A DNA stretch of 34,933 bases from a virus (IMGVR_UViG_3300008262_004183:1-34933); one strand, 5' to 3'; numbered from the stretch's first letter, positions 13,648 through 33,103 are shown. The notes: generated by a model not told the origin, from the sequence alone. Translations and numbers: made by a program.

Positions 13648-13654
13648 AAAAACC

Positions 13655-13662: not shown

Positions 13663-13670
13663 AACATAAT

Positions 13671-15865: not shown

Positions 15866-15908
15866 CTCTTCTCTCCTTTTTAAAAGTAGCAAGTTTGATG
15901 GCATGCAG

Positions 15909-15916
15909 AATTTATA
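15909..15916 (-). promoter_or_regulatory. Possible late promoter (TATAAATT)
   Basis: The minus strand has seven of eight matches to the late core, 44 bases before the queD-like ATG. It is weaker and further away than the other late motifs. With the sigma70 promoter just upstream it could give the operon both early and late expression. Confidence 0.3.
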
Positions 15917-15949
15917 TTGCGGGGTGAATGCCTAAGACCGCATAATATA

Positions 15950-15977
15950 ATTATACTTTCTTATTGATCGTTGTCAA
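15950..15977 (-). promoter_or_regulatory. Consensus sigma70 promoter for the queD-like/uvsE operon
   Basis: On the minus strand, TTGACA (15977..15972), a 16-base spacer and TATAAT (15955..15950) give a full consensus promoter. The -35 box lies inside the 3' end of the 112-residue gene. Recognition by unmodified host RNA polymerase, and so early expression of the queD-like, 54-residue, uvsE and DUF465-like genes, is inferred. Confidence 0.8.
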
Positions 15978-16299: not shown

Positions 16300-16322
16300 G
16301 ATAATTTGCCTTAGTAGACAAA

Positions 16323-16330
16323 TATTTATT
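16323..16330 (-). promoter_or_regulatory. Possible late promoter (AATAAATA)
   Basis: The minus strand reads AATAAATA, one mismatch to the late core, 24 bases before the ATG of the 112-residue membrane protein, in the 63-base gap after the 501-residue gene. Confidence 0.45.
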
Positions 16331-16362
16331 GGTGAGGAAACAAGAATTAAAATCTAAGATAA

Positions 16363-17868
16363 TTATTGTCTTGCAATGGCTCCGAACGGTGCCCAAACAC
16401 CAGGCTCGCCGTCAGAAATACATACCCATCCAATGTAGTTATCTAGTTGTGGATTTTCATTCCACACTATGTCGCCTTTTCGATAACTTCCGTTAATTGG
16501 CATGTTTGATCCTACTGACATTTTTTTGCCGCCAAATCCAATAGAACCTTTAACATTTAAGTCAACAGTTGGATCTGAATTGTTAATGCCAATTGACACA
16601 GGCCCAAACATTTTAACAGGCCGTCTTAAATTTATTTTATTGCCTATAGAAATTTCATCTAACCCAGCATAGATAATATCATCGTCGTTTATTGATGCGT
16701 GGAAATGACTGCTAGAATTAAATTTTGATCCTGTAATTGTTAAACTGTTATTTGTATCGTTTAATATTATATTACTGGCTAAGATTGTTCCTCTTGATGC
16801 ATTAACATCACTTAAAAATACAGCTGACCCTTGAACCGCTAGGCTTGTTAGAGTTCCTAGACTGGATAGATTAGATGAGGTTACTGTATCACCTAATTTG
16901 TCTGTTGAAAGAATTTGTGCGCCATTAATGTAGTAAGATTGATTTTGTCCAATGTCAAAAGACTCACTAGTCCACACTCGATCAGGATTGGCCATTAATA
17001 ATAACGATTTTGGCGTACCTGTTCCTGACCAAAGAAGCCCTAATCCGTAACAAGATTGAGATCTTGTTGTTTTAAAATCTAAAGAACTGTTTCTCTCAAG
17101 TCTAGTATCTGTTACTAAATTATCAACTGTAAGTGTTCCGTGAACAATTAAATTGCCGGTTTTGTGTATTGAGTCACCAATAACAACTTCTCCGCTATTT
17201 TTAATAGTAACTCTAGCTGTGTTGTCTGTTATAAACGATAGATGATGATTGCTATATGTACCAATAGTGGCATAGTTTGCAGTCAATGAACCTATTGAAA
17301 TTTCAACATCGTTTTCTACTATAGAGATTGCTGTGTTAGGTTCATCAGTGCCTAGACCTAAACGTCCGAGTGCGCTATTAAAGGTAGCAAATTCTGATAG
17401 TGTTACATCGCCAGTAACGGTTAAATTTTTAAGTGTTCCTACTTCTTTTAGATTACTTTTAGTAATTTGGGAACCAAGAGCTGTTTGACTTATTACAGGG
17501 ACGTTATCAATTTTAAAAGACTTACCAGAATCTAAATCCAAATCCCCAGAAACCCATATCCTACCGCCGTCTCTGTAGGCCAATCGTGTGCTACCATTGC
17601 CCCAAGTCCAGCTAAATCCTTTTCCGTTGAGTTCTTCTTCTGTGGGAAATATCCAATTTCCTGCATCTAAAATATTCCCGCTTTCGGTAACAAGATTTTT
17701 AACTCTTATAGTAGTAGCTTCAATTGTTTGGGCATTAAGATATCCTTCAAGGATAATAGGCCCAACAATGTTCAGTTGGCCAGTATGGTGTACTGATCCT
17801 TCTAGCTTAGATAGTTCTAGCTTGTCAATTACAATTTTATCGTTTTGTATAGAAAAAAGTTGGCTCAT
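16363..17868 (-). CDS. Virion structural / tail-fibre-like protein (501 residues)
   Basis: The protein is made of beta-type, Gly/Thr/Ser-rich repeats such as G-N-L-I-V-H-G-T-L-T-V-D-N-L and L-G-T-L-K-N-L-T-V-T-G-D-V-T-L. This style is common in phage fibres and adhesins; a repeated motif with S-S-L-G-T-L-T-S-L-A-V-Q-G occurs near 360. The compact C-terminal part (about 455-501: S-Y-R-K-G-D-I-V-W-N-E, I-G-W-V-C-I-S-D-G-E-P-G-V-W) ends in a Trp-rich motif typical of small C-terminal modules in marine phage fibre proteins, perhaps the exposed tip. No enzymatic motif is seen. It has its own late promoter (17887-17894) and a purine-rich ribosome site (GAAGAGAG), and begins just after the terminator of the preceding unit. 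Confidence 0.75.
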   Translation of the reverse strand: MSQLFSIQNDKIVIDKLELSKLEGSVHHTGQLNIVGPIILEGYLNAQTIEATTIRVKNLVTESGNILDAGNWIFPTEEELNGKGFSWTWGNGSTRLAYRDGGRIWVSGDLDLDSGKSFKIDNVPVISQTALGSQITKSNLKEVGTLKNLTVTGDVTLSEFATFNSALGRLGLGTDEPNTAISIVENDVEISIGSLTANYATIGTYSNHHLSFITDNTARVTIKNSGEVVIGDSIHKTGNLIVHGTLTVDNLVTDTRLERNSSLDFKTTRSQSCYGLGLLWSGTGTPKSLLLMANPDRVWTSESFDIGQNQSYYINGAQILSTDKLGDTVTSSNLSSLGTLTSLAVQGSAVFLSDVNASRGTILASNIILNDTNNSLTITGSKFNSSSHFHASINDDDIIYAGLDEISIGNKINLRRPVKMFGPVSIGINNSDPTVDLNVKGSIGFGGKKMSVGSNMPINGSYRKGDIVWNENPQLDNYIGWVCISDGEPGVWAPFGAIARQ

Positions 17869-17886
17869 AATATATCTCTCTTCCAG

Positions 17887-17894
17887 TATTTATC
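17887..17894 (-). promoter_or_regulatory. T4-like late promoter (GATAAATA)
   Basis: The minus strand reads GATAAATAC (17894..17886), the same nonamer found before the Fe-S carrier gene. It lies 18 bases before the ATG of the 501-residue virion gene and just downstream of a terminator. Confidence 0.65.
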
Positions 17895-17920
17895 TGAAGT
17901 ATGAGCAACTGATCGTCAAA

Positions 17921-17946
17921 AAAATAGGGCCTTTCGGCCCTATTTT
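17921..17946 (-). terminator. Strong intrinsic terminator
   Basis: A perfect 11-bp stem, AAAATAGGGCC paired with GGCCCTATTTT, has a four-base loop. On the minus strand it is followed by a run of seven T. It overlaps the stop codon of the 396-residue gene and isolates it from the virion gene downstream. Confidence 0.9.
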
Positions 17947-19135
17947 ATGCTACTTTAAGTAGTATGGTGTCTTCGTTAATGCGACCGTTCATTTTAGTGT
18001 CAGTAGCATTAATATCTTCTAAGAACTTACGCAACTGTACCTTACCAGCAGCCTTAAACTCTTTAAGTTTTTCTTCTGGCTTACGGATAGTTTTTTGAAC
18101 ACTCATATTCTCATTAAAGCCAGTGATGCTAGTGCCTTTAACACCTAGCTCGTTAAATTCGCCGGCAACATATCTGCCAAGTTTACGAGTTTTAGTGTTA
18201 AACACCCACAGTTCTTTACTACCAATAATGTCAGTAGGGCTAACAGATACAAGTTTTAAAGGCTCGTCGGTCTTTTTATACTTGAGTTTAGCAACAATCT
18301 TTTCAGCAGGAACAGCCTTACGAGCACGTGGCTTCTTGTTAACTTTGGCTTCTTGCATGAGCATATTGCAAGCACTCTCAACTTCTTGCAAGAATTCAAT
18401 TAGCTTCTTAATTTGTTTACGGCTACGATGACTGTAACCTTCACGTAACTGTTCGTCGGCATTGCCGCCAGACAATTCAAGAAGTTCTGCTAGATCGCGA
18501 GCATAAAAGTCACGAATAATACGAGCATGAGCTGCTTTGGCCTGCTTGCCTTTGAGCAAGTTAAGAACCTTAAATGCCTTAGGATCAAAAGATTCTGGAT
18601 CCTTTTGCCATGCTTCGTAGGCATCTTCAATTTCTTCAGTCATTGCAAAAGTAGCTTCACGCACACGATCCTGAATAGTAACAACAGGCCCTGCTGGTTT
18701 GACTTCTTTCTTTTCTTCTTCCTCAATGTCGTATTTTCCACTCTCCATTGATTCGACAATGGCATTACGCAACCATTCAGAACTGTCTCGACCGTTGTTA
18801 AAATCAGTACGCTTAGGAGTCATGCCACGCAAAAGACAACTGGCAACAGCACCCATAGTACCACTAATACGGCTATCCTTTACCTTTTTAATTGCAGCAA
18901 TATCTTTTTTAGAACAGCCAACAGACTCCATCCATTTGAGAACAGCCGGCTTAGCAAATTTGCCATCAGTTTCTAACCGATAGTAATCCATACTACGTCG
19001 AAAGTGTGCATAAAATTGATCGGTACTCCAATTCTCGCAACCATCCCAAGTAGGGCTAGTGTCCTTAACTGCACGGGTACGATGAGCTATAACTTGCTTT
19101 TTAGTTACTCGAGTTTTGGTTGCGATTTTTGCCAT
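17945..19135 (-). CDS. Conserved phage protein of unknown function (396 residues)
   Basis: The start chosen is the ATG at 19135, eight bases after a GGAG; a GTG at 19144 directly abuts that GGAG and is unlikely. I do not recognise the family. The N-terminus is basic (M-A-K-I-A-T-K-T-R-V-T-K-K-Q), residues around 30-110 are Trp/Tyr-containing (W-S-T-D-Q-F-Y-A-H-F-R-R-S-M), and an acidic E-E-E-E-K-K-E run lies near 140. A helical middle and a basic K-K-P-R-A-R-K stretch near 270 follow. Overall it is soluble and highly charged with no signal peptide, which would fit nucleic-acid binding, but this is only a guess. It forms its own unit, from a consensus promoter overlapped by a perfect dyad to a strong terminator, so it is probably early and separately controlled. 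Confidence 0.7.
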   Translation of the reverse strand: MAKIATKTRVTKKQVIAHRTRAVKDTSPTWDGCENWSTDQFYAHFRRSMDYYRLETDGKFAKPAVLKWMESVGCSKKDIAAIKKVKDSRISGTMGAVASCLLRGMTPKRTDFNNGRDSSEWLRNAIVESMESGKYDIEEEEKKEVKPAGPVVTIQDRVREATFAMTEEIEDAYEAWQKDPESFDPKAFKVLNLLKGKQAKAAHARIIRDFYARDLAELLELSGGNADEQLREGYSHRSRKQIKKLIEFLQEVESACNMLMQEAKVNKKPRARKAVPAEKIVAKLKYKKTDEPLKLVSVSPTDIIGSKELWVFNTKTRKLGRYVAGEFNELGVKGTSITGFNENMSVQKTIRKPEEKLKEFKAAGKVQLRKFLEDINATDTKMNGRINEDTILLKVA

Positions 19136-19217: not shown

Positions 19218-19970
19218 TTACAATCTTTGTATATCATTTTCGGTACATTGTTCACCGTACTGTATTTCAACAATCCTACACGGTTCGTCAAACGGGTTAG
19301 TTAACTGATGCCATAAACCAACAGGAATATGTTGGAACTGGTGTAAGATACGTTCCTGCTCACCGTCGCCAAAATTTACTACACATCGTCCTTCAGATAT
19401 GTGCCAATGCTCTGCCCGATGATGATGTCTCTGCATACTTAAACTTTTGCCGGGCATCACTGTAAGTTCTTTTACCTTGGTTCCCGGTATCTCATGTAAT
19501 ACACGATAATACCCCCAAGGTCTTTCAGTCTTCGGTGCTTTCCATTCTTGTAAAATCCATCTACTAGAGTTTTGCTTGTCAAATCCGCCTACCCCAAACG
19601 TAAATGTAAGATTATCATCTTTGACGTCCATTTCTGGAATGTTAGCGTGTGTTCGATCTCCACCATTGGCAAATATTAATTTAGCGTCGGGATAATGTGC
19701 TCGGACCTGTTGTATAAAGTGTCTAGCAGATCCGTCAGTATCGTCAAATGTGTAAACTTCATCTACCATTGATAGATTGTTTATTATACATAGTCGTTCG
19801 TTCCAAGGCATAAAGGCACGCCCTTTTTTACGCTCTAACCATTCATCTGAATTTAATCCAACAATTAACATATCGCCAAGTGTCTTGGCTTGTTTAAAAT
19901 AGGCGATGTGACCAGAATGGAGGGGATCAAACCCACCAGTAACTAATACTATGTTCACAATTTTTTCCAT
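19218..19970 (-). CDS. Nucleotidyltransferase-cupin fusion (TagD/RfaE-like plus sugar-isomerase-type cupin)
   Basis: Residues 1-140 are a small cytidylyltransferase-type domain with G-G-F-D-P-L-H-S-G-H (12-21), G-L-N-S-D-E-W-L (38-45), a W-N-E-R motif (56-59) and a K-Q-N-S-S-R-W-I-L motif (132-140). Residues about 148-240 are a cupin like the C-terminal part of type II mannose-6-phosphate isomerase (R-P-W-G-Y-Y, then L-S-M-Q-R-H-H-H-R-A-E-H-W-H-I), with likely metal ligands His182-184, Glu187 and His188. Known relatives activate glycerol-, ribitol- or heptose-phosphates with CTP or ATP, and the cupin acts on hexose phosphates. Such a protein could make a nucleotide-activated sugar or polyol. 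ATG at 19970 or GTG at 19958 (GTGA overlap with the upstream stop) are both possible. Last gene of the long operon. Confidence 0.85.
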   Translation of the reverse strand: MEKIVNIVLVTGGFDPLHSGHIAYFKQAKTLGDMLIVGLNSDEWLERKKGRAFMPWNERLCIINNLSMVDEVYTFDDTDGSARHFIQQVRAHYPDAKLIFANGGDRTHANIPEMDVKDDNLTFTFGVGGFDKQNSSRWILQEWKAPKTERPWGYYRVLHEIPGTKVKELTVMPGKSLSMQRHHHRAEHWHISEGRCVVNFGDGEQERILHQFQHIPVGLWHQLTNPFDEPCRIVEIQYGEQCTENDIQRL

Positions 19971-21472
19971 TCATTATAAAGATTGGCTAGTTCTGGAAAA
20001 GTTTTTTCGAGACTAGTTCCTTTACGACTATCGTATTCTGTAAAGTATTGAGCAAAATTCTTTCTATTAATAGTTTGGTTAGCCGGTCTTTCTCGCATAA
20101 CAGCTAAATTACGTTTAACTTTTTCAATCTCAAAGTCGTAAAATCCATCAAAGTTTCCAACATCGATATTGTTCTCCATGAACACAATCGCTTCTTCTAA
20201 GTACCTTTCGAATTCTTCAGGCAAAATATGTATGTTCTGCCAAGCTGGATTTCTAAGCAATGGCACATCAAACCAAATCCGTTGGCGCGGGTGTACTTCG
20301 TAGTCTGGATGAGTGTTATACGGATCATGTATAGGAATGCGTTTAATACCCTGTGCATGACGATTATATGCTGTACGTAGGTCTAAAATATATTGTAAAA
20401 ACTCTTTAAACTTCGGAACACTTAATGCATTGAATGTGTTAATAAATGTCAATGTTGTATTACTTGTATCAGCAAGTAGATGCCTTACATTCTTTTGAAG
20501 GACAGAATAATCTAGGCCTGAACGAATATATTCCGCTTGGCCACCAACGCTGTCGAGACTTACAAATACAGCAAAGTTTTTTACAGCCATATTTACGTAC
20601 CAATGATTTCCTGATCCAGGATTCCAGCGTTCCTTATCTTCCCAAATTTTTATTTCTTCTAACTTTTTAAGTTTTTCAATAAACTTTCCAAACAGCTCAG
20701 GTTTCGGCGGACACATATTTGTTGTAACACTAACTTCAAGCCATTGGTTAGGATTTTCGTAGATGTAGTCTAACACTTTAAACGTGTTAGCATCCATCAA
20801 CGGTTCTCCACCAGTCATTCTTAAGACTTCTAATTTTTTGTATAAGTCTGGCCACCACTTCCAAAACGCTTCAAGATATGGATTATCTTCTTGTCTTACT
20901 TTTAAAGGCATTACACCTGCTGTCGTTAATGCATCAATATTGTTATGTTCAGTAGGAGACCCTTGAGAAGTTAGAATAGAGTATGGGCCAAATTCTTTAA
21001 CCTCATCTTCCCAAGCTGTTGAAAGGTGCGGACTACAGTACATGCATTTAAAATTACATGCCTGGTTAAAGTTCACTTCAACATACCGAGGCGTAACATC
21101 ACCAGTATCCATTGCCTCAAAGATGTCATACCTTGCATTTTGAGCCCAGTACTCTCCGCTACGATATATTCTATCGCTTCGGCCACCTACATCTTCAATT
21201 TTCCAGCAATAGCTACATCCCTGCGGGCGTTCGCCGCGTAACATCATACCTCGTTCTTTTTTCTTCTGTTCAGTGTTATGTAAAGCACTAGGGTTCTTTT
21301 GAAGCTGGCTAATATCAATACTGTGCAACGGTGGATGATAGCAACTTTGAGTCATACCGTTAGTAAGGTGCATAGATACCTGTGCCCATTTTGCATAGCA
21401 CATTGTTTTACTAATTCGGTTTAGTTGATGCTCTGCTTTATCTGCGTTATCATTGTAGTTGCTCATAGCCAT
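19955..21472 (-). CDS. Twitch-domain radical SAM protein (copy 1)
   Basis: The radical SAM cluster motif is Cys139-x3-Cys143-x2-Cys146 (Q-A-C-N-F-K-C-M-Y-C-S-P), followed by a G-G-E-P motif. Ahead of it an N-terminal domain holds Cys25, Cys44, Cys86 and Cys89, which suits an auxiliary-cluster (twitch) domain placed at the N-terminus. The C-terminus is charged and helical and ends F-T-E-Y-D-S-R-K-G-T. The enzyme should cleave SAM to a 5'-deoxyadenosyl radical and modify a substrate not identifiable here. It is a clear paralogue of the protein at 29501-30895, with identical spacing of the radical SAM cysteines. The start is ATG at 21472 or 21466; the second overlaps the upstream stop and is better spaced from AGGA. 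The protein is cytoplasmic. Confidence 0.88.
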   Translation of the reverse strand: MAMSNYNDNADKAEHQLNRISKTMCYAKWAQVSMHLTNGMTQSCYHPPLHSIDISQLQKNPSALHNTEQKKKERGMMLRGERPQGCSYCWKIEDVGGRSDRIYRSGEYWAQNARYDIFEAMDTGDVTPRYVEVNFNQACNFKCMYCSPHLSTAWEDEVKEFGPYSILTSQGSPTEHNNIDALTTAGVMPLKVRQEDNPYLEAFWKWWPDLYKKLEVLRMTGGEPLMDANTFKVLDYIYENPNQWLEVSVTTNMCPPKPELFGKFIEKLKKLEEIKIWEDKERWNPGSGNHWYVNMAVKNFAVFVSLDSVGGQAEYIRSGLDYSVLQKNVRHLLADTSNTTLTFINTFNALSVPKFKEFLQYILDLRTAYNRHAQGIKRIPIHDPYNTHPDYEVHPRQRIWFDVPLLRNPAWQNIHILPEEFERYLEEAIVFMENNIDVGNFDGFYDFEIEKVKRNLAVMRERPANQTINRKNFAQYFTEYDSRKGTSLEKTFPELANLYNEWKKL

Positions 21473-22131
21473 CCTAGCTTTGTTAGTTCTTCTTTTAGAT
21501 AATTATTAGCAAAATGCACGTATGCCTCTTCGTCTGGGTGTGTATCGTCTTGCAAGGGTAAATTGTTTTCGATTGTGTAGCTGAATATTGATTTATCTAA
21601 GAAATCTATTTTGTTACTTATTAAGTAGTTGTCAAAAGTTTTGTGAAATGCTTTTGGTATTGCCTGGTCCCACCCTTTGATCACTAATAGGTTGTTGGTA
21701 AATTTTTTAATAATTTTAAAATAAAATAACAACTCTTGTAAAACTTCTGCGCTGTCTACTAAAACATCCTTGCACTCTTTATGATAAAACAAGTAATCAA
21801 CTTGTTGACAACTATTAAGTAAATTAACTGATGATACTACAGTGCCCGGTGCTGGTCTTATTTTATTAAGTATGTGAGGGACTATACCTTCAGACTTACG
21901 TCTTTTATGTGACCTGCTCGCGCCAGTTATTTGCCATATGATTATATCGTTATCTGTAATGTTGTCGTTTAAGAGAAACTCTTGAAACCTTTTCATTTGC
22001 AACTGATTACTCGATCCCGGTATTGCGAGATTAACTAGGCAGAGGTTTGACTGGTTAGACAGTTCTTCTCCCCAGGTCTTTTTGAATCCCCAAGCCGATA
22101 AGCTACACCCTAGCACTATTAGTCTTTTCAT
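21463..22131 (-). CDS. SGNH/GDSL-hydrolase-like protein (222 residues)
   Basis: The block I motif is L-G-C-S-L-S with the nucleophile candidate Ser10 (Gly8-Cys9-Ser10 in place of G-D-S). A G-S-S-N-Q block (39-43) can supply the Gly and Asn of the oxyanion hole. The end has D-D-T-H-P-D with Asp195 and His198 spaced as the catalytic DxxH. The N-terminus is not a signal peptide. Members of this superfamily hydrolyse or transfer acyl groups, often acetyl groups on sugars. The ATG overlaps the stop of the preceding gene as ATGA, so it is tightly coupled to the next SGNH gene. Substrate unknown; a glycan O-acetyl group is a reasonable guess from its neighbours. Confidence 0.75.
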   Translation of the reverse strand: MKRLIVLGCSLSAWGFKKTWGEELSNQSNLCLVNLAIPGSSNQLQMKRFQEFLLNDNITDNDIIIWQITGASRSHKRRKSEGIVPHILNKIRPAPGTVVSSVNLLNSCQQVDYLFYHKECKDVLVDSAEVLQELLFYFKIIKKFTNNLLVIKGWDQAIPKAFHKTFDNYLISNKIDFLDKSIFSYTIENNLPLQDDTHPDEEAYVHFANNYLKEELTKLGWL

Positions 22132-22850
22132 TTTAACTTCTCGTAAAGGTACTTTGCTACTTCAAGAGCATCTTCAGCACCAGGGTGTAACAAGTCTCTA
22201 GCAGTTTGATTGTTTTTAAAATACTGGTCGCATCTCATGTAGTGTGCTGTCTCTGGAAAGAACGACACTGACACATACCGAGACCTTCCCTTCCACATTG
22301 CACTAGAGTTTCTACCTAAGTAGTAGTTCAAACACATCTCATTTGTGGGATTAATATATGTATTTGTCCAAAGGCTTGTTAGGTTAGTGTCTTCTATTTC
22401 TAAGTTGCTACCAAACAGAGTTTTATGGAATATTGACTTACTTACATCCATGTAACCGTTGCTGTAGTAGTATCTAAATCTGTTTGGTGCAGACCAGTTT
22501 ACTACCACTCCATAAGGTATATCAAACTTTTCTATAATTATAGAGCCGTGGTTAATCATTGAGTTATTAGAGCTACCCGGAACACCTAAGTTAATAACAG
22601 GTCTTCCTAACATTTTTTCTAAGTTGTAAGATATTGTTTCGTCCTCAGCTAGTCCAACTCCGTATGTACACGAGTCTCCTAAGAGTACAACAGAATTTTT
22701 CCAATCAATATCCTTCCATTCTTTAGTTCTAAACCCGCTTTGATTTTCAATGTACCTTACATCTTTAGTATGATACGTCCAGTCTTTGGGCATTTTTCTT
22801 TTGTTTAGGTACTTCTTTGTGTTATTAATCCAGGTGTTCATTGTTATCAT
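22128..22850 (-). CDS. SGNH/GDSL-hydrolase-like protein (240 residues)
   Basis: Block I is a standard L-G-D-S-C-T-Y-G-V-G (Ser60), and G-S-S-N-N at 92-96 supplies the oxyanion residues. D-L-L-H-P gives Asp219 and His222 as the catalytic pair, so a complete triad is visible. About 50 residues precede block I and are rich in Trp, Lys and Tyr. There is no signal peptide, so it should act in the cytoplasm of the infected cell. The first ATG (22850) is chosen because AAGGAA ends four bases before it; another ATG three codons later is less well placed. It begins one base after the stop of the SPASM radical SAM gene. Confidence 0.82.
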   Translation of the reverse strand: MITMNTWINNTKKYLNKRKMPKDWTYHTKDVRYIENQSGFRTKEWKDIDWKNSVVLLGDSCTYGVGLAEDETISYNLEKMLGRPVINLGVPGSSNNSMINHGSIIIEKFDIPYGVVVNWSAPNRFRYYYSNGYMDVSKSIFHKTLFGSNLEIEDTNLTSLWTNTYINPTNEMCLNYYLGRNSSAMWKGRSRYVSVSFFPETAHYMRCDQYFKNNQTARDLLHPGAEDALEVAKYLYEKLK

Positions 22851-22851
22851 A

Positions 22852-23958
22852 CTATTCCTTGTTAGCGAACAAGATGTCTATTGCCCGCTCTTTGTTTGCA
22901 CTCTTGCCACATTGTACCCAACATTGGGAAAGAGACTTTGACTCCCAAGAGTCGGTATAAACTTCTAAAATTTGGTTATCGAGTATTTCTTTTAAAGATC
23001 GGTGATTTAGATTATTTGTGATACCTAATTTAACTTGTAACTCTTGCATTTCTCTCGATTCTGGAACATACTGCGGGCCTTGCATCTTGTTACCTACAAA
23101 ACAACAAGGGTGTACCCTTCCAAGGGCATCAACATATATTTCAACAATTTCTTTTTGAGAGTAAGGTACTGGTGCATTTCTAAAAGACATACATTGGATG
23201 CAACCTTCTTCTTTTACTGGTTTTGGCAAATCAGCTCGCCACCCGACAGGAGCAGGAACATAATGTGTGTCAACTGGGTTGAATGCATGGTTAATAACAT
23301 ATTCAAGGTTATAGTCTTTGTCATAAACAGGCATACCAGTGCCATCAACACCAAATGGATTCTTAAGGACAAACCTAATATCGTATTTTTCTGCTAAATG
23401 TCTAGCTTGCTCAACTTGATGTACATTGTGTTGAAACTGTAAAAAGTCCCAGTGTGCTTCTGCTCCAGTTGCTTTATAAGATAGCATGTTCTCCCATACC
23501 TTGTGCCACCTTACGTTTTTACGATATATGTGATTAGTATCCTCTAAACCGTCAACTGAGAACGTGACTACTCTGTGTGGAATTATGCCGTTATACTCTT
23601 TTCTTTTAGCAAATAAGTTTCCTATCTTTGTAAAGTATTCTGTCCCTCTTAGACCACCGTTAGTGTTAAGTTGTATGTTTCCAGGACTGTATTCGCAGAT
23701 ATACTCTAGTATCTCATAGAGGTCGGTACACGTAATGGGATCGCCATGGGTGCCGCAAATAATCCAATTATAAACTCTACTTACTAGTTCAACTGGGAAC
23801 CAACTTTTAAATTGAGATATGGTTATGTCTGTTTGAATTAACGCAGGATCAACATTAGGGCTGTTCCTTAAAAACCTCGGACACCCCGGACATGCGGCAT
23901 TGCACTTAGTTGATAGTTCTAAGTGTATAGCGGAGATATCTTTATAATTCCAAGGCAT
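22852..23958 (-). CDS. Radical SAM protein with SPASM-type C-terminal cysteines
   Basis: The core motif is Cys19-x3-Cys23-x2-Cys26 (T-K-C-N-A-A-C-P-G-C-P), close to the N-terminus as in the SPASM group. Further cysteines near the C-terminus (G-C-I-Q-C-M, H-P-C-C-F-V-G-N, Q-C-W-V-Q-C-G) are arranged for one or two auxiliary Fe-S clusters. S-V-D-G-L and N-T-N-G-G match core strands. SPASM enzymes modify peptides, sugars or cofactors, and the substrate here is unknown. It differs from the two twitch proteins in this cluster and lies between SGNH genes; it overlaps the preceding SGNH gene by 17 bases. It is 368 residues long and looks intact. Confidence 0.88.
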   Translation of the reverse strand: MPWNYKDISAIHLELSTKCNAACPGCPRFLRNSPNVDPALIQTDITISQFKSWFPVELVSRVYNWIICGTHGDPITCTDLYEILEYICEYSPGNIQLNTNGGLRGTEYFTKIGNLFAKRKEYNGIIPHRVVTFSVDGLEDTNHIYRKNVRWHKVWENMLSYKATGAEAHWDFLQFQHNVHQVEQARHLAEKYDIRFVLKNPFGVDGTGMPVYDKDYNLEYVINHAFNPVDTHYVPAPVGWRADLPKPVKEEGCIQCMSFRNAPVPYSQKEIVEIYVDALGRVHPCCFVGNKMQGPQYVPESREMQELQVKLGITNNLNHRSLKEILDNQILEVYTDSWESKSLSQCWVQCGKSANKERAIDILFANKE

Positions 23959-24787
23959 AGTTCTCTTTTAAAAATTTATATATGTATTCTGCAACTACCC
24001 GCTGCCCTTCTATAGTCCAGTGATTACAGGGAGTTATATATGTTGATGGCATCTTTAATCTAGCTGAATACCCCCACAGGCTGTCTCCACCGTTTTCTTT
24101 TTTTAGGAAGTCAGCTGTAAAGTTTACAGGAATATAATTAGTCCAATCAACCATATTGAGTAGATTGCTGTCGCTACCAAGCACTTCTTTCATTTTTTGA
24201 ATATTAAATAACGTATCAAATGCACTCGCAAATACAAATTCAAATCCACGTGCCTTGCTGAAGTTTTCTACTTCAGCAATAGCAGTTAATGTTTCAATTA
24301 CTGAAGTTTTTTCAGAGTGTCCGTACCTTGCATACCACTCTTCAACCTTTTCTATTGGCTCACCTTTGTGAAGATTTGGAATAGGCCAAATTGTTAGCCA
24401 ATGCATGTGGTCTTTACCTATATAGTCTTGTTTAAGAAAATCAAACCTTTGTAGTCCACTTATCATGAATACTACAATTACCTTTCCAGTAGTCTTAGGT
24501 ATTTCGTTAAGATATATTTCTTTTGATGCGCCTCTATTGCCAACACCGTTAACAGCCAAGTTAATGACTTTAAAGTTTCGTAAGTGATTTTTAGACAATT
24601 GAGATGCCCAGTTATTCTCCATCTGATGATCTCTATATAACTCGCCTACTACGTTAAAGTGCGGATTTCCTTCGTGTTTTTTCCAAACATCTAAAGGGTA
24701 AGCTCCAATACCCTGTGTAAAGCTGTCCCCTATAGCAATAATCAAATTGTCGTTAGCTTTAATAGTAGGCATGTAGTCCTTTAGCAT
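23942..24787 (-). CDS. SGNH-hydrolase-like protein, paralogue A, lacking the usual catalytic Asp
   Basis: Block I is I-G-D-S-F-T-Q-G-I-G (Ser22), and N-G-V-G-N-R-G (about 79-85) provides the Gly and Asn positions. The expected C-terminal DxxH is replaced by T-P-C-N-H (His256), with no Asp three residues before the His. A central I-S-G-L-Q-R-F-D-F and a W-P-I-P motif are shared with the protein at 26073-27089 (P-S-G-L-E-R-F-D-F and W-P-H-P), so the two are paralogues. This may be a dyad-type or altered hydrolase or transferase. It sits downstream of a putative glycosyltransferase and overlaps it by seven bases. Confidence 0.75.
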   Translation of the reverse strand: MLKDYMPTIKANDNLIIAIGDSFTQGIGAYPLDVWKKHEGNPHFNVVGELYRDHQMENNWASQLSKNHLRNFKVINLAVNGVGNRGASKEIYLNEIPKTTGKVIVVFMISGLQRFDFLKQDYIGKDHMHWLTIWPIPNLHKGEPIEKVEEWYARYGHSEKTSVIETLTAIAEVENFSKARGFEFVFASAFDTLFNIQKMKEVLGSDSNLLNMVDWTNYIPVNFTADFLKKENGGDSLWGYSARLKMPSTYITPCNHWTIEGQRVVAEYIYKFLKENYALEL

Positions 24788-26076
24788 ATTTTAAAGTACT
24801 CCTTGTAATAAGTTTGAAACTCTATAAACGGACTAGTAAAATTGTGCTTGCATTGTCTTAGAACAGATCTATTATGCTCTAATATAGGTTGTAACGATTT
24901 GTACCAAGATACTTTGTCTTCTATTTTATTAATCTTATTAAGAGCATTGACTATCTTTTGAAATCGCTCTCGATCGTCACATTCGTCGTAAGACTCGTCA
25001 ATGTACGGATGAAAGGTTTTATATCCAAGTTCTTTAAACTTTTTTAAGAAACCTTTACTACCTACAATAATAAATGGTTGGAGACAAATAATTGGTTTGT
25101 ATGTCTTTTCACTTATAAACAATGTGTTCTCTTTCTGATAATACGATGCCTCTGTTACCACCGACACCCAAGTGTGTTTGTATAATTCTTTTAATATTCT
25201 ATTAAACACACTCCCGTCTTCAACGAATCCACGAGGTAATGATAACGGTAAATTGTCCATTGCTTTTTTAATAACTGTACTCTCAAACCCTAACACACTA
25301 AATGATGAAATCTCCGGCATTGTAATATACCCCTGTGTGTTGATACCTTCTTTAACTATATTTAGGTAGTTCTCAATTCGATGAGCCCTGTAAGTTCCTC
25401 TATTCAAGCAGTCAAATAATTTTATAGAAGTATAGTTATCAGCTTTGTATTCTACTAAGTCTTCAAAATTAAAATTGTATTTTAAGTATTCTGCACGATC
25501 CATAATAAACTTATCAAATATCGCAACAGGTATTACTTTAATTTTTTCAGGCGCAAACCACTTCTTACTATGCCATAGATCATACGAGTTAGATGCATCT
25601 TGATTGCCGGTGATGTATACAATTGCTCTAGGGTTAATTTTAAATGTCTTACATTCCTTATGAATAAAGTCCCAAAGCCAATCTGTTTGGTATCCCTCAT
25701 GGCTTTGGTCTATAAGGAATAATGCATTGCCTTCTCTCAGATCATTTAGGTATGTAGTGTTTAACACGCTGAACAAACTAGGAACATTCTCGTTGTATGG
25801 GGGGCCTGCCCATTCAACTGGATGGTGTGCTACCCCTGTAGAGATTACATAGTGTTTTGGTTTGTTCTCTAAGGAAAACGCCTTTACGGTATTATCCACG
25901 TTTAATTCAAAGAATCGCGATGTAAAGTCTGAAAATTTAAATCGGGTATTACCGCTCTCGTATGATGTATTTTTGTCTAAGAAGTTACCAGTCTTGTTAG
26001 CAATAGCCATAACAAGATTGTAATAAGGATCGTTGAATATTTTTAGATTGGTATAGTTCTCAAAAACAAAATTCAT
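24781..26076 (-). CDS. Putative glycosyltransferase-like protein, paralogue A
   Basis: This 431-residue protein is a paralogue of the one at 27092-28501. Shared blocks are S-T-G-V-A-H-H-P-V-E-W-A-G, I-D-Q-S-H-E-G-Y-Q-T-D-W-L-W-D, Y-I-T-G-N, and F-I-S-E-K-T-Y-K-P-I-I-C-L-Q-P-F followed by L-G-Y-K-T-F-H-P-Y-I-D-E. The S-E-K-T-x-K-P-I block, followed by a hydrophobic strand and Gly, recalls the nucleotide-sugar-binding part of GT-B enzymes such as GT10 fucosyltransferases (S/T-E-K-I-x-P-I), but I cannot assign a family firmly. No transmembrane segment or signal peptide is seen. The start overlaps the preceding SGNH stop as ATGA, so the two form a coupled pair. Confidence 0.6.
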   Translation of the reverse strand: MNFVFENYTNLKIFNDPYYNLVMAIANKTGNFLDKNTSYESGNTRFKFSDFTSRFFELNVDNTVKAFSLENKPKHYVISTGVAHHPVEWAGPPYNENVPSLFSVLNTTYLNDLREGNALFLIDQSHEGYQTDWLWDFIHKECKTFKINPRAIVYITGNQDASNSYDLWHSKKWFAPEKIKVIPVAIFDKFIMDRAEYLKYNFNFEDLVEYKADNYTSIKLFDCLNRGTYRAHRIENYLNIVKEGINTQGYITMPEISSFSVLGFESTVIKKAMDNLPLSLPRGFVEDGSVFNRILKELYKHTWVSVVTEASYYQKENTLFISEKTYKPIICLQPFIIVGSKGFLKKFKELGYKTFHPYIDESYDECDDRERFQKIVNALNKINKIEDKVSWYKSLQPILEHNRSVLRQCKHNFTSPFIEFQTYYKEYFKIC

Positions 26077-27089
26077 TTTAGATTTAGTATATGTTGATAC
26101 AATCTGCTTGCATACAGATCGTGTGCCTTAGCACTAGGATGAGCACATGCTGTCATCCAGCGGTTTGGAGATCCTTTTCCAATAAATTGAAAAAAGTACT
26201 CATTATTATCTTTGATACTGGGTTCTTGTGCCACTACAAACTGTGCCATAGTCTTGTGTCCGTTGGGTTCAAAGATATTACCCCATGGAAACAGATTTAT
26301 AAAGTTAGAAACTGTTTCGCTTCTAAAGAGAGGAATTTTCTGATTTATAAAGTTACCCTCTCTGTCTCTAAACACATTTATATCTAGTTGGTCTTGAAAG
26401 AACTTTTTATTAAATCGATCATCAAATGCAGGTGTGATAATCAGTTTAGCATGTTTAGCTTCACACCAAGTTAATAACTCTTGCACATGCCCCAGCTGTT
26501 CCATAACCGTAAAACGATCGCTATAAAGTGATTTAGCATATCCCTCCCATAGAGATTTCCTCGGCCCACTAGACATGCCGTCAGGATGCGGCCACATAGC
26601 CTTCCATCGATTTCCATCAACAACTTCGTCGTTAATAAAATCAAATCGTTCTAGACCAGACGGCATGTAGATAACGATTATTTCTTCGATGATGTTCCAG
26701 TTTATACTAGGATAGAAGTATAGCTCTTTTATTGTTGCTCTATTGCCGCACCCTCGTACTCCAAAATTTATTGGGGTATATTTGCCGCCAAAATACTTTT
26801 TGCATAGGACACTAACATAAGAGTTTTCTCTTTCCATAAAACGAAAATTTATCTTGTCATTATCTTCTGGCTTTAGAATAGGATACTTATCTAGTAGATC
26901 TTTTCTTTCTTTTGGAGTAATAGTAATTTCAAGTTGCTCTCCAACTTTTGGATGTGTCCATTTATAGTCAGTGTATAGCTCGTCGTTAACTGCTCCTTGG
27001 CCTTCAGTGTATGAACACCCAAGTGCTATAATTGCTTTACGTGTTCTTTTTAAGTCTTCGTTAATCTTTAAAATTTCTTCTTGAAACAT
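26073..27089 (-). CDS. SGNH-hydrolase-like protein, paralogue B, lacking the usual catalytic Asp
   Basis: Block I is L-G-C-S-Y-T-E-G-Q-G (Ser26), and G-V-R-G-C-G-N-R supplies the Gly and Asn positions. The C-terminal element is T-A-C-A-H-P (His317), where an Asp three residues earlier is missing, as in the paralogue at 23942. An insertion of about 60 residues follows block I (N-D-E-L-Y-T-D-Y-K-W-T-H-P-K), making it longer (338 residues) than the other three SGNH proteins. It lies directly between two putative glycosyltransferase paralogues and shares an ATGA overlap with the following one. The enzymatic role is unknown; acyl or sugar transfer on the same product as the other copies is likely. 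Confidence 0.75.
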   Translation of the reverse strand: MFQEEILKINEDLKRTRKAIIALGCSYTEGQGAVNDELYTDYKWTHPKVGEQLEITITPKERKDLLDKYPILKPEDNDKINFRFMERENSYVSVLCKKYFGGKYTPINFGVRGCGNRATIKELYFYPSINWNIIEEIIVIYMPSGLERFDFINDEVVDGNRWKAMWPHPDGMSSGPRKSLWEGYAKSLYSDRFTVMEQLGHVQELLTWCEAKHAKLIITPAFDDRFNKKFFQDQLDINVFRDREGNFINQKIPLFRSETVSNFINLFPWGNIFEPNGHKTMAQFVVAQEPSIKDNNEYFFQFIGKGSPNRWMTACAHPSAKAHDLYASRLYQHILNLK

Positions 27090-27091
27090 TA

Positions 27092-28501
27092 TTATTCCTT
27101 TACATAATCAAGTAGCTTAGTAAACGCACTGGGAATAATTTCTTCACAGTTTTTGTAAAAAACTTCTCGATTATGATTTAAAATGTCTTCTAACTTCTTA
27201 TACCATTCTAACTTCTCAGATGCAGTTAGTTTTTGTATTTTAGATATAGACTTTATAATGGCAGGAAATCTTTCCCATGTTGGTAACTCGTCGTATGTTT
27301 CATCAATATAAGGATGAAATGTTTTGTAGCCAAGATCCTTTAAGTTCTTTAAAGAATACTGATTTCCTGTAATAACAAACGGGTGACAACATGCAATAGG
27401 CTTAAATGTTTTCTCGCTAATAAAGCAAGTTAGTTCTTCGTCACTAAAAGACGCTTCACTTACTACAGTAAGCCAAGTATCTAACATTGTCTGCTCGTTA
27501 AACGCCGTAAGGTAAGCACCACAATCTCCGTCAGAGAAATTATTTAGATTGTACCCGGCAGGATTCTCAGGAGGCATCAGCGGCAACATATTTGCCAATG
27601 CTTCATATTCTTCAGGCATCAAAGTCTTGCCTTCATAGTATGACTTATGAGACTCAAATGCATTCATGCTTATAATATTATCTTTTACAAGATTAGCTTC
27701 CCAAAGATATTTAAAGAACCAGATCCTATGTACCCTTGGTCTTTTTTGTAGTGCGTTAAACGTTCTAATGCTGTTTAATTTTTCTGTTTTATAGTTTACT
27801 TGATCTATAAAAGACGGTAGTGGATTTTTCTTGTTAAACAACCCTCGCAAATGATGTGTTGCGTTGAAATGCATAACACCTTCGAAGTGAGGATAAGGAA
27901 GAACTAAGATCCTGTCTACTAAGTTCTTAGATTTTGCCCATGCTTCATATTGCCTTTCAGATTCTAAGTTTCCAGTTGCATAAATTATCTGTTTAGGATT
28001 TATACCAAAAAGATTACAGCAATTATGAAACCAGTCCCACAACCATGGTGTTTGATAACCTTCGTGGCTTTGATCAAAAAGAATGTAAGCACGGCCAGAC
28101 TGTAAATCTGCCATATATTGTTTGTTTAAGTAGAAGAATGCTGGTAACTTTCCTCTGTTATGTGCTCCTATAGTGACCGCAGGATTATTAGAACCATCCT
28201 CTCCGCACCAATCGGGAGGAGAATGTGCTACACCGGTAGGTATTACATATTTTTTATATCGTGGAGGTTCTCCGCTGTACCTAATATTTTTACCAAACAG
28301 TTTCCTAGAGTTGTATTCTGACTGGTTAAATCTTATAGCTTCTAAGGCCAACGGGCTAGGAGTAAATCGTCTAATTCCAGAGCTGTTAACATCTGGACAA
28401 GATACTAAGTTACTAAATGTTTCAAGATCCTCGTAGACAAAATGAACACCGCTAAAGTCGTCTGTAAAGTCTTTAATGAAGGTTTTAATTTTCTCAAGCA
28501 T
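27092..28501 (-). CDS. Putative glycosyltransferase-like protein, paralogue B
   Basis: I take the ATG at 28501, two bases after the epimerase stop codon; an ATG at 28543 would add 14 residues inside the epimerase gene, and neither has a clear ribosome site. The 469-residue protein shares with its paralogue P-T-G-V-A-H-S-P-P-D-W-C-G, F-D-Q-S-H-E-G-Y-Q-T-P-W-L-W-D, Y-A-T-G-N and C-F-I-S-E-K-T-F-K-P-I-A-C-C-H-P-F, followed by L-G-Y-K-T-F-H-P-Y-I-D-E-T. A GT-B type glycosyltransferase is a working guess from the S-E-K-T-F-K-P-I block and the neighbouring epimerase. It begins the tandem pair of glycosyltransferase-SGNH units. Confidence 0.6.
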   Translation of the reverse strand: MLEKIKTFIKDFTDDFSGVHFVYEDLETFSNLVSCPDVNSSGIRRFTPSPLALEAIRFNQSEYNSRKLFGKNIRYSGEPPRYKKYVIPTGVAHSPPDWCGEDGSNNPAVTIGAHNRGKLPAFFYLNKQYMADLQSGRAYILFDQSHEGYQTPWLWDWFHNCCNLFGINPKQIIYATGNLESERQYEAWAKSKNLVDRILVLPYPHFEGVMHFNATHHLRGLFNKKNPLPSFIDQVNYKTEKLNSIRTFNALQKRPRVHRIWFFKYLWEANLVKDNIISMNAFESHKSYYEGKTLMPEEYEALANMLPLMPPENPAGYNLNNFSDGDCGAYLTAFNEQTMLDTWLTVVSEASFSDEELTCFISEKTFKPIACCHPFVITGNQYSLKNLKDLGYKTFHPYIDETYDELPTWERFPAIIKSISKIQKLTASEKLEWYKKLEDILNHNREVFYKNCEEIIPSAFTKLLDYVKE

Positions 28502-28502
28502 A

Positions 28503-29504
28503 TTACATAAGTTTCTGAGACCAAGTCTTTGGAGTATATTCATTTATAATTTCTAAAGGATACGTGTAGTCAAAGGGTTTGCTACCTCTAGTTTTAATAT
28601 AATCTATTGTACTACGCACACCTTCAATAAGAGTAGTTGAAGTTTTATAATCTAAATTCATTCTAGCTTTAGTTGCATCGCAGGTTGCATATTTTACTTC
28701 TTTAGGCCGATCTGGCATGTAAATCGGTTGCCCATCAAAATTCATTTCTTTAATAATAATTTCGGCTAATTCTTTAATTGTTATAAATTCCTCATCAGGT
28801 CCTATATTAAAGGTGTCATTTTTAATATTTGGATCTAAGGCAAGTTTTTCAAGACAGTAGATACAATCGTCAATAAAACTAAAACATCTCATTTGTGACC
28901 CGTCGCCGTAGATAATTGGAGGTTTACCTTGCAGAACACGATTAATCATAATGCTCATAACATTGCGGAAAGGATCGTCATACCGTTGCCTTGGTCCAAC
29001 TATGTTGTGAGGTATAGCAACAACCCATTCCATATTATTCATTGGTGCTAGAGCTTTAAGCACATCTTCGCCGGCAACTTTAGCAATACCATACGGATCA
29101 ACGGGCATCGGTGTTTGTGTTTCTTTAAATGGATATTCTTGAATCCCATATCTTGCCATACTTGAACAATAAACGAATCTTTTTACTTTATTTTGTATTG
29201 CTGCACTTATGGTACTAACACTTGCTTGAAAAATATTATTAGTAATAAAATACGGACTAAAAATACTAAGACCTTCGTGTGGTGTAGCAGCTGTATGAAA
29301 AACTATGTCGCAACCCTTAGACACCTCGACCATAAAGTCTAAATGGCAACAATCGCCCCTTTTAAAATCTACACCCTTAGGGACATTATCAATGTATCCG
29401 CCGCTTAGATTATCACAACCTACTACATCGTGTCCTAATTGTAACATCCTATCAGCTAAATGACTTCCTAAAAAGCCTGCAACTCCTGTAATTAAAATTT
29501 TCAT
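28503..29504 (-). CDS. NAD-dependent sugar epimerase/dehydratase (extended SDR)
   Basis: The 333-residue protein starts with the Rossmann motif G-V-A-G-F-L-G (Gly7, Gly10, Gly13). It has Ser114/Ser115 in Y-C-S-S-M-A and the catalytic Tyr138-x3-Lys142 in Y-G-I-A-K. Such enzymes act on nucleotide-activated sugars by epimerisation, 4,6-dehydration or decarboxylation. The long C-terminal part with N-I-G-P-D-E-E matches the sugar-binding region of the UDP-glucose 4-epimerase group. The exact substrate cannot be told. It overlaps the twitch radical SAM gene by four bases (ATGA) and precedes the glycosyltransferase-like gene, which supports a sugar-nucleotide pathway. Confidence 0.9.
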   Translation of the reverse strand: MKILITGVAGFLGSHLADRMLQLGHDVVGCDNLSGGYIDNVPKGVDFKRGDCCHLDFMVEVSKGCDIVFHTAATPHEGLSIFSPYFITNNIFQASVSTISAAIQNKVKRFVYCSSMARYGIQEYPFKETQTPMPVDPYGIAKVAGEDVLKALAPMNNMEWVVAIPHNIVGPRQRYDDPFRNVMSIMINRVLQGKPPIIYGDGSQMRCFSFIDDCIYCLEKLALDPNIKNDTFNIGPDEEFITIKELAEIIIKEMNFDGQPIYMPDRPKEVKYATCDATKARMNLDYKTSTTLIEGVRSTIDYIKTRGSKPFDYTYPLEIINEYTPKTWSQKLM

Positions 29505-30895
29505 GTTTTTTTCTCTTCTGCTAGTTCTTTACAAAGTTTCCAAAATGATTCCATTTCTGGAAAGGTCTCAAGAAAATTAGTACCTCTGCGCTTGTCATAC
29601 TCTGTAAACCAATTATAAAAATCAATCCTGCCTTCTTTGACTCGTTCAGCATCATACTCTTTAGTTGCAAAGTAATCGCGAACTCTGCGAAACTTTTCGT
29701 ACTCCATGTCTGTAAATTTTGTAGGATCTATCTCGTTTCTATTATCGTCAATAAATTTTAAGATCTTATCAAAATACGGAAGATATGTTTCTTTAGGAAG
29801 TATTAACATATCGTATTGTAATGGTTCTTTTAAATAGGGCGTATCAAAACGAATTTTTCTACCATACCCTGTTGGGTTTAGAATCGGCTGATACTTCTCT
29901 CTCCACTCAAGAACTTTTTGTAAAAAATCAGTAAACGATGTAACGCTTAAGATATTAAACGTACACATGATTGATATTGGTGCTTTGGTTTTAGTAATGT
30001 AAGTATCTAAATTAGATTCCCATAGTTTAGTATCTAACCCAGTTCTCAAATACTCAGCCCGGTTATTCCAAGTGTCCATACTTGAAAACACCTTAAAGGT
30101 TTTGATCTTTTTATTATCAACAAGATCGTTAATGTTTTCACATAATCGATCAATATGCCTTGGAGTAAGACCAAAGTTGCTGTTTAGGTTTAACTCAAGA
30201 TGAGGTTTAGGTTCAGCTCGTAAGTGCTCGAATAGTCTCCAAGTGCTCTTATGCATTAAAGGTTCTCCACCTGTAATACGAAGAATGTTTAAAGTTTTAG
30301 AAACTTCTGGCCACCAACGCCACCATGCTTCAATATAAGGGTTTTCTTCTTCTTGATACGGCTTAAACCATTCTATATTTAATGTGTGATTTTTAACAGT
30401 TTCGTAAGGACCAAACTGTTTAATTTCACTTTGGAAGCTGCTACTACTCATAGGATGGCAATAGCCGCATTTAAAATTGCACTCGTTACTAAATGCAAGT
30501 TCGATGTATTCTGGATTAATGTTGTAGTCCCACGGACTGTTTACAATTTCTTCTAATCGTTCAGGCTTATATATGTTTGCATTACGATCGTGTCGGTCAC
30601 TTATATGAGTGTCACTGAGTCCCTCAACATTCCAACAATATTGGCAACCTTTTGGTTTTTCACCAACTAGCATTAACGCACGTTCTTTTTTCTTTTCGGG
30701 TGTATTATGTAGGGCCGCAGGATTTATTTTAATTTCTTCTAATGGAATATCGTGAGGTCTTGGATGATAACAACTGTGCGTCTGACCAGTATGTAAGTAG
30801 ATGCTGGTATGATGCCACTTTGCCAAACAAAAAGTTGGACTTATTTCGTTGGTAATTTTTATAACTTTTCTAATTCGATCAATTTCTGCGCTCAT
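29501..30895 (-). CDS. Twitch-domain radical SAM protein (copy 2)
   Basis: The cluster motif is Cys139-x3-Cys143-x2-Cys146 (N-E-C-N-F-K-C-G-Y-C-H-P), again followed by G-G-E-P (T-G-G-E-P-L-M-H). The N-terminal twitch-like cysteines are Cys23, Cys42, Cys84 and Cys87 (C-Y-H-P, C-Q-Y-C-W), matching the copy at 19955 to within two residues. Both share H-N-T-x2-K-K-K-E-R-x-x-M-L near 64-76 and end with F-T-E-Y-D-K-R-x-G-T. The function is an unknown SAM-radical modification. It begins the cluster after the 77-residue gene and has a GGGGAT ribosome site just before its ATG. Confidence 0.88.
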   Translation of the reverse strand: MSAEIDRIRKVIKITNEISPTFCLAKWHHTSIYLHTGQTHSCYHPRPHDIPLEEIKINPAALHNTPEKKKERALMLVGEKPKGCQYCWNVEGLSDTHISDRHDRNANIYKPERLEEIVNSPWDYNINPEYIELAFSNECNFKCGYCHPMSSSSFQSEIKQFGPYETVKNHTLNIEWFKPYQEEENPYIEAWWRWWPEVSKTLNILRITGGEPLMHKSTWRLFEHLRAEPKPHLELNLNSNFGLTPRHIDRLCENINDLVDNKKIKTFKVFSSMDTWNNRAEYLRTGLDTKLWESNLDTYITKTKAPISIMCTFNILSVTSFTDFLQKVLEWREKYQPILNPTGYGRKIRFDTPYLKEPLQYDMLILPKETYLPYFDKILKFIDDNRNEIDPTKFTDMEYEKFRRVRDYFATKEYDAERVKEGRIDFYNWFTEYDKRRGTNFLETFPEMESFWKLCKELAEEKKT

Positions 30896-31983: not shown

Positions 31984-32417
31984 TACATTTTCTCGTAGGT
32001 TTGTGCAAAGATATCTTTTTTGACTACGCCGTAGTCGCCTTCACCGTGGCGAACAATAATATCTTCACTAGGATTATAGTGTAACTTCTCACCCCAACTA
32101 GTGTCAACTGTTCCGGAATGATCTGCAACTTTAGCCACTTTAATAATTTTCTTAGGTGTGCAAATACCATTGCCTAAATCATCTTTAAGCTCGTCAAATT
32201 TTTCCGGACTCATAGGGTATTCTTCACCTTTAGGTCCGGTAAGGATATAAAATCCTTTGGGATAGTTAACCGGTCCCTCTAGTGTTTGAATGGTACCTGC
32301 TTCGTCAGCAATGCGATATTTTTCCTTAGCAGGTCGCTTGTAAGTCTTAAAACCACCGTCCTTGAACCATTCGTCGGTAATTCCTTTGCCTTCAACAATG
32401 TTAATTAAGTCTCTCAT
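31983..32417 (-). CDS. PGDYG-like protein of unknown function (144 residues)
   Basis: The C-terminus contains R-H-G-E-G-D-Y-G-V-V-K-K-D-I-F followed by A-Q-T-Y-E, which resembles the PGDYG domain seen in phage and bacterial proteins of unknown role. A similar half-motif lies earlier (L-T-G-P-K-G-E-E-Y-P-M-S-P-E-K-F), so the protein may hold two related halves of about 60 residues. It is soluble with no catalytic signature. It shares a 4-base overlap with the Bax-inhibitor gene upstream. Confidence 0.6.
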   Translation of the reverse strand: MRDLINIVEGKGITDEWFKDGGFKTYKRPAKEKYRIADEAGTIQTLEGPVNYPKGFYILTGPKGEEYPMSPEKFDELKDDLGNGICTPKKIIKVAKVADHSGTVDTSWGEKLHYNPSEDIIVRHGEGDYGVVKKDIFAQTYEKM

Positions 32418-33103
32418 TCTTTCTTTATTCCAAAAAGTTGTAACAAGTTAATAAACAAGTTGATAAAGTCCATGTAGAGTGTGAGAGCACCCAAGACTTC
32501 TTCGCGGCCCGAATTATCAACACTAACCATTTCTCTAATACGCTGTGTATCGTAAGCAGTTAGTCCTAAGAAAATAACAATTGCCAAGGCACTAATAACC
32601 ATCTGCATTACAGTACTTCCAATAAAGATATTGATAATGCTGGCAATGATAATAGCAATTAATCCAATAAACATAAATTGGCCTATACTAGTTAGATCAC
32701 GTTTAGTAAAATAACCATAAAAGCTCATAACACTAAAAAGGATTGCCGCGCCCATAAAGGCACTGACAATTGATCCCATAGTGAATACAGCAAAGATTGT
32801 AGCAAAGCTCAATCCCATTAATGCAGCAAAGCTATGCAAAAATACTTGCAATCCTGTTTTAGTAAATTTTTCTGCAGCAAAACTAAATGCAAGAATTGCC
32901 ACCAATGGTGAGAAAATTACAATCCATTTAGTTACGCCGGTAAAAAAGAATTGAAGTAGTTCCGGCGTAGTGCCAACAAAATAACTAACAATCATACTTA
33001 CCAATACGGCAATGCTCATGTGTCCGTAAACACGGCCCATTGCTGAATTAATTTCGGCAGCAGAACGGTATGTCATGCCACCTGTATAAGATGTCCCAAA
33101 CAT
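32414..33103 (-). CDS. Bax-inhibitor-1 family membrane protein (YccA/YetJ-like)
   Basis: The 229-residue protein has about seven hydrophobic segments, at roughly 27-44, 58-75, 86-108, 110-130, 140-162, 166-184 and 205-225. It carries the family signature A-Y-D-T-Q-R-I and L-Y-M-D-F-I-N-L-F-I-N-L-L. Asp185 and Asp212 match the aspartate pair that controls the pH-sensitive calcium leak in bacterial YetJ. The family includes YccA, which inhibits the FtsH protease in E. coli, and eukaryotic BI-1. It should sit in the inner membrane of the infected cell; protection of phage products from FtsH or control of ion leak are both possible, but not shown. It lies in the ligase operon, three bases downstream of the MazG-like gene. 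Confidence 0.9.
   Translation of the reverse strand: MFGTSYTGGMTYRSAAEINSAMGRVYGHMSIAVLVSMIVSYFVGTTPELLQFFFTGVTKWIVIFSPLVAILAFSFAAEKFTKTGLQVFLHSFAALMGLSFATIFAVFTMGSIVSAFMGAAILFSVMSFYGYFTKRDLTSIGQFMFIGLIAIIIASIINIFIGSTVMQMVISALAIVIFLGLTAYDTQRIREMVSVDNSGREEVLGALTLYMDFINLFINLLQLFGIKKE

Follow-up and report, generated by a model that had tools for sequence, protein, structure and literature searches.

Gene Content of the Locus

The window, i.e., the whole stretch of DNA analyzed here, is the complete IMG/VR record IMGVR_UViG_3300008262_004183 (34,933 bases), which derives from a phage of the T4-superfamily type and represents a genome fragment that contains no capsid genes. Between positions 19218 and 30895 it carries 11 adjoining open reading frames of 222–505 amino acids on the minus strand (Table 1): In the order of transcription, these are K (radical SAM, rSAM), J (epimerase), I (glycosyltransferase (GT)-like), H (SGNH4), G (GT-like), F (SGNH4), E (rSAM), D (SGNH2), C (SGNH1), B (rSAM), and A (nucleotidyltransferase–cupin). 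Eight of the ten junctions between them are overlaps of 4–41 bp, the other two are gaps of 1–2 bp. A preliminary description of this DNA had spoken of ten overlapping genes in one direction. The single strand stands, as do the gene classes (three radical SAM, four SGNH-type, two paralogous GT-like, one epimerase, one nucleotidyltransferase–cupin); overlap applies to eight junctions and not to the two gapped ones, and the gene number has to be raised to 11, which is also the sum of the description's own list (3+4+2+1+1).

Table 1. Genes of the cassette (A–K) and further genes of the window.
Feature	Coordinates	Strand	Evidence and remarks
K, N_Twi radical SAM (rSAMK), first gene of the unit	29501..30895	-	NF033640 309.4 bits, cut-off 170; CxxxCxxC and invariant N-terminal Cys
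J, SDR-type NDP-sugar epimerase	28503..29504	-	PF01370 1e-43; nearest solved structures UDP-glucose and other nucleotide-sugar epimerases
I, GT-B-fold glycosyltransferase-like, GT of the first GT–SGNH4 pair	27092..28543	-	AlphaFold2 pLDDT 87.9; best Foldseek PDB matches GT-B enzymes
H, SGNH4 family, CE2-esterase-like, partner of I	26073..27089	-	AlphaFold2 pLDDT 86.5; best match 2w9x; Ser and His invariant, DxxH Asp missing
G, second GT-B-like protein	24781..26076	-	40% identity to I (alignment)
F, second SGNH4-family protein, partner of G	23942..24787	-	Family of H, different clade in tree
E, radical SAM with SPASM-like C-terminus	22852..23958	-	PF13186 0.0086 and NF033640 37.6 bits, both below cut-off; CxxxCxxC in 25/25 family members
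D, SGNH2 family, esterase-like	22128..22850	-	PF13472 0.0066, below cut-off; SGNH4 immediately upstream in 36/37 relatives
C, SGNH1, GDSL-like	21463..22131	-	PF00657 0.00078, below cut-off
B, second N_Twi radical SAM (rSAMB)	19955..21472	-	NF033640 314.5 bits, cut-off 170
A, nucleotidyltransferase–cupin fusion	19218..19970	-	PF01467 6.8e-13 and PF01050 1.7e-24; nearest structures cytidylyltransferases; accessory, rare in relatives
Tail-fibre genes	3-12956		Flank of cassette
Tail-fibre-type protein, 2929 aa	4167-12956	-	Possible glycan acceptor
UvdE-type UV endonuclease	14162-15181	-	PF03851, E 2.3e-36
QueD	15338		Outside cassette
Virion structural gene	16363		Outside cassette
Bax1-I/YccA family protein, seven-TM	32414-33103	-	PF01027, E 1.3e-52
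MazG	33107		Outside cassette
ATP-dependent DNA ligase	33734		Outside cassette

None of the module proteins of the window contains a strong hydrophobic or transmembrane segment. The T4-type late promoter TATAAATA matches once in the window and not at the module, which is below chance expectation, and scans for sigma-70 promoters and terminators gave results at about chance level. Judged by sequence comparison, the cassette exceeds chance through the homology of its genes and the conservation of their order in other contigs. Among the surrounding genes, the one encoding the Bax1-I/YccA family protein is also kept in same-backbone relatives (L023, L024, L027, L045, L046, L111).

Gene Order in Related Phages

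Gene I yielded no matches in a single-sequence search; its relatives were found by an alignment-based search. Alignment searches of viral contigs provided confirmed loci for the GT (29), for SGNH4 (the best 80 of 144), and for the radical SAM family (the best 80 of at least 577), from which near-identical copies were removed before co-occurrence was counted. The analyzed loci are the best-scoring relatives, and the fractions describe the kin of this module rather than phages overall.

Within this set of non-redundant loci, the GT lies directly upstream of SGNH4 in 47 of 47 cases and SGNH4 directly upstream of SGNH2 in 36 of 37. Loci seeded with the radical SAM family (44, from the best 80 of at least 577) contain a GT in 43 cases, in 37 of them on the same strand and no more than eight genes downstream; the epimerase (19) and SGNH4 (15) are less constant. 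The order rSAM–(epimerase)–GT–SGNH4–SGNH2–rSAM is found again in several T4-like backbones. Moreover, the pairwise distances of GT and SGNH4 correlate with a Mantel r of 0.80 (75 pairs, permutation maximum 0.16), and r is 0.70 among pairs below 70% identity. The window itself holds two GT–SGNH4 pairs, I–H and G–F, which suggests two glycan steps or two acceptors, and in two relatives (L120 and L127) the epimerase is fused to the GT. The preliminary description had proposed a joint pathway and looked to repeated co-occurrence in other phages for its support: Such co-occurrence is what we observe, and together with the paired duplication and the epimerase–GT fusion it supports the joint pathway; the predicted GT-B fold and the glycan theme of that proposal are likewise supported, as described below.

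Accessory genes in the phage loci encode a 2OG-Fe oxygenase, a UDP-glucose-type dehydrogenase, a carbamoyltransferase, a b4GalT-like GT, and a KedN5-like B12-rSAM, the last with a score below the cut-off of that model. An amidinotransferase identity considered for f45 (L105) was dropped, as neither NCBIfam nor Pfam gave a match.

Predicted Folds and Enzyme Classes

Both GT-like proteins are without a match in Pfam and PHROG, and G also in NCBIfam, so that neither qualifies for a described glycosyltransferase sequence family in these libraries. For I, an AlphaFold2 model was calculated on the family alignment. Its best Foldseek matches in the PDB are trehalose-6-phosphate (T6P) synthase, glycogen synthase, BshA, WaaG, and GT10-type enzymes, the top one with a modest E of 1.5e-3 at a probability of 0.99. 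Against viral predicted structures, I finds uncharacterised phage proteins of one family (best E 9e-17), among them a 788-residue protein named UDP-glucose/GDP-mannose dehydrogenase. The family is thus assigned a two-Rossmann GT-B fold, predicted rather than solved. A GT-B or related fold for the products of 24781 and 27092 is what the preliminary description had named as support for its proposal: The confident model is that of I, and G is its paralogue.

H, for which the Pfam search gave no family match, is predicted to adopt an SGNH/CE2-like fold: Its AlphaFold2 model, likewise calculated on the family alignment, retrieves the CE2 esterase 2w9x first (E 8e-4, probability 1.00), followed by EstA and TesA. 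The SGNH4 family retains the serine of G[DC]S and the histidine of CxH in 81 of 81 members, with the usual aspartate of DxxH (position H-3) missing, and the SGNH2 family carries DxxHP in 44 of 57. None of the four SGNH genes reaches a Pfam gathering score; the GDSL-lipase matches of C, D, and F are weak and below cut-off (Pfam E 0.0006–0.009). In the libraries searched, neither the GT-B-like nor the SGNH4 family passes a cut-off. J scores 149.9 bits with PF01370 (cut-off 20.9) and YxxxK is present in 70 of 70 relatives, which marks it as a predicted extended SDR NDP-sugar epimerase, and both halves of A exceed the Pfam cut-offs.

Radical SAM Enzymes and Their Probable Link to Surface Glycans

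B and K lie well above the curated cut-off of NF033640 (‘N_Twi_rSAM’), E lies below it and, while possessing CxxxCxxC, is a more distant SPASM-like enzyme. The invariant cysteines of N_Twi_rSAM comprise C139/C143/C146, which form the CxxxCxxC motif conserved in 145 of 145 relatives, and the extra N-terminal C23/C42/C84/C87. An identity as viperin was rejected, its scores being weak and far under those of NF033640. In two relatives, L012 (5695-7794) and L017 (4996-7791), the radical SAM proteins possess one or two additional N-terminal repeats of unassigned type; a LamG/ConA-like domain considered for these longer proteins is unsupported by Pfam (hhalign E 0.056).

The strongest outside clue to the function of this family comes from a bacterial contig (L212, 8579-11143, minus strand), on which a single open frame of 854 amino acids combines a Wzt-type ABC ATPase, Wzt_C, and N_Twi_rSAM. 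Its neighbors are WbsX, an ABC-2 permease, RmlC, RmlD, and three further N_Twi_rSAM genes. By analogy, this fusion to an O-antigen exporter component beside glycan genes ties the N_Twi_rSAM family to surface glycans and points to glycan editing, and the accessory genes of the phage loci point in the same direction. Some of these accessories (carbamoyltransferase, oxygenase, B12-rSAM) also recall antibiotic pathways. The maturation of peptides is a frequent role of radical SAM/SPASM enzymes, and related radical SAM enzymes of phages are weakly similar to peptide maturases, so that a small diffusible or peptide-linked product of RiPP- or aminoglycoside-like character might be made in place of a polymer glycan. 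We regard such a product as improbable: The core order contains no recurring small gene among open reading frames of at least 70 amino acids, and O-antigen export is the best bacterial context of the radical SAM family.

Probable Exchange between Phage Backbones

The carriers of the module possess at least two clearly distinct Gp23 capsid proteins, one being nearest to Melnitz and HTVC008M (66–68%), the other to Vibrio phage 2.275.O and PA5oct-type phages (68–72%). In the SGNH4 tree, some branches of which are weakly supported, H of the window clusters with phages of a different backbone, whereas relatives that share its backbone but have a short module stand apart; its identity is 51–52% to the former group compared with 30–32% to the latter. 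These phylogenetic patterns identify the module as a putatively horizontally mobile cassette that moves between phage backbones. In a tblastn search of the cultured-phage collection (HTVC008M, Mosig, and Melnitz are among its members), B, H, and I were without a match, and K is matched in two Vibrio phages only, at about 30% identity. Relatives in cells are rare, with next to none for the GT and SGNH4 families: A species-level genome scan returned one match, and the rSAM and GT families occur in 2 of 299 genomes each in one sampled phylum. A bacterial GT relative adjoins genes for a DegT aminotransferase and a GHMP kinase.

Proposed Function and Target

From these assignments the following sequence of steps may be drawn. 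The nucleotidyltransferase–cupin protein and the SDR epimerase would, according to their families, make an activated sugar, which the enzyme of predicted GT-B fold would then transfer. The paired SGNH4 protein, together with SGNH2 and SGNH1, could add or remove O-acyl groups, and the N_Twi_rSAM enzymes, to go by the Wzt fusion and their context, might modify the sugar or the growing glycan by radical chemistry, for instance through epimerisation or deoxygenation. Finally, the product might be joined to proteins of the virion itself, such as those of the tail fibres, which is the least certain of the steps. That the module is a glycan module at all is very probable.

In the commonest backbone, the cassette comes directly after tail-fibre-type genes (f11), and the unit continues with overlapping junctions through conserved GT8-like and unclassified genes; a gene among the conserved neighbors in some of these loci has a weak, sub-threshold CBM5/12 match. 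A complete O-antigen export locus (initiating transferase plus Wzx/Wzy or Wzm/Wzt) was not found, and a crude hydropathy scan of 188 partly overlapping loci revealed no recurring polytopic exporter-like family beside the module. Because of this continuity with tail-fibre genes and the missing exporter, we favor decoration of virion fibres and infer late expression. The modest Foldseek E of I, the missing DxxH aspartate of SGNH4, and the lack of a late-promoter match at the module count against this reading.

A close rival places the same enzymes at the inner membrane, where they would work on a lipid-linked or LPS-linked glycan: An infected host would have its O-chain or another surface glycan changed (serotype conversion), which would block superinfection or free progeny. 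With this agree the Wzt-fused bacterial N_Twi_rSAM in its ABC-type O-antigen locus, which fits virion decoration equally, the DegT and GHMP-kinase neighbors of the bacterial GT relative, and the preference for O-chain modification that the pelagimyophage authors express for the glycosyltransferases of these phages (PMC7029224). The junction of the unit with tail-fibre genes speaks against it, as does the lack of an exporter-like family, although host exporters could serve. On balance, we consider host-surface modification a serious but tentative alternative.

The third conceivable target is DNA. Phage glycosyltransferases are known to glycosylate DNA, and the window holds a QueD gene, yet the module lacks a gene for modified-base synthesis, its synteny in the commonest backbone is with tail fibres and not with replication genes, and we know of no role of SGNH esterases in DNA modification. 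Hypermodification of the phage DNA with sugar is the most improbable of the alternatives.

We therefore arrive at the reading that a mobile phage cassette makes and edits a short glycan in the late tail-fibre stage, virion target included, to which we give a probability of roughly one in two. Its most specific form is only tentatively put forward: The glycan coating the tail fibres of the phage itself would be edited by radical SAM enzymes in a dedicated viral pathway, GT and SGNH esterase would form an obligate pair, and the cassette would be swapped among distant T4-like phages. Aquatic phages are frequently reported to carry radical SAM genes to which no role has been assigned. Linking one large group of these genes to a fixed GT–SGNH–epimerase unit and, via the Wzt fusion, to glycan chemistry offers a concrete, testable function. 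Should the glycan indeed sit on the fibres, the interpretation of marine phage sequences with regard to host range and recognition would change.

Comparison with Known Systems

A cultured counterpart of the radical SAM genes is the cluster of Vibrio phages K566/K567 (L203), which comprises four radical SAM enzymes, of which at least two exceed the NF033640 cut-off, together with two GT8 and a GT4-like protein; in K566 the rSAM–GT8 cluster spans 11656-18392, with PagP nearby. The identity of the radical SAM enzyme is only about 30%, and the SGNH, GT, and epimerase families of the module are not represented among the genes scanned. The O-antigen locus of L212, which is ABC-transporter-dependent, resembles the module in placing NF033640 radical SAM enzymes beside glycan enzymes; it differs in its Wzt-type ATPase, ABC-2 permease, and dTDP-rhamnose genes, none of which is present in the phage module, where SGNH enzymes are found instead. 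To our knowledge, neither radical SAM nor SGNH enzymes are involved in the described virion glycosylation of mycobacteriophages. What these phages would share with the proposal made here is the placement of glycans on virion proteins, in their case capsid and tail tube (Freeman et al. 2023, as cited in PMC12619734).

The nearest described system is the pelagimyophage host recognition cluster, whose defining position is between VrlC and gp14. This variable island holds several GT8 and radical SAM cassettes along with tail fibres, and it is also reported to contain rfaE and genes for UDP-glucose dehydrogenase (Zaragoza-Solas et al. 2020, PMC7029224). The statement of the preliminary description that no described system has this set was therefore too strong: In both cases, a variable island of T4-like aquatic phages combines GTs and radical SAM genes with tail fibres. 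The part of that report considered here does not name an SGNH–GT unit or a fixed gene order, both of which characterize the module (PMC7029224), and the carriers of the latter include other capsid types. As these clusters are already published, the module is to be seen as a better-defined new version of them; the additions are a unit both fixed and mobile, two families below every library cut-off, their fold assignments, and the link of the radical SAM family to Wzt.
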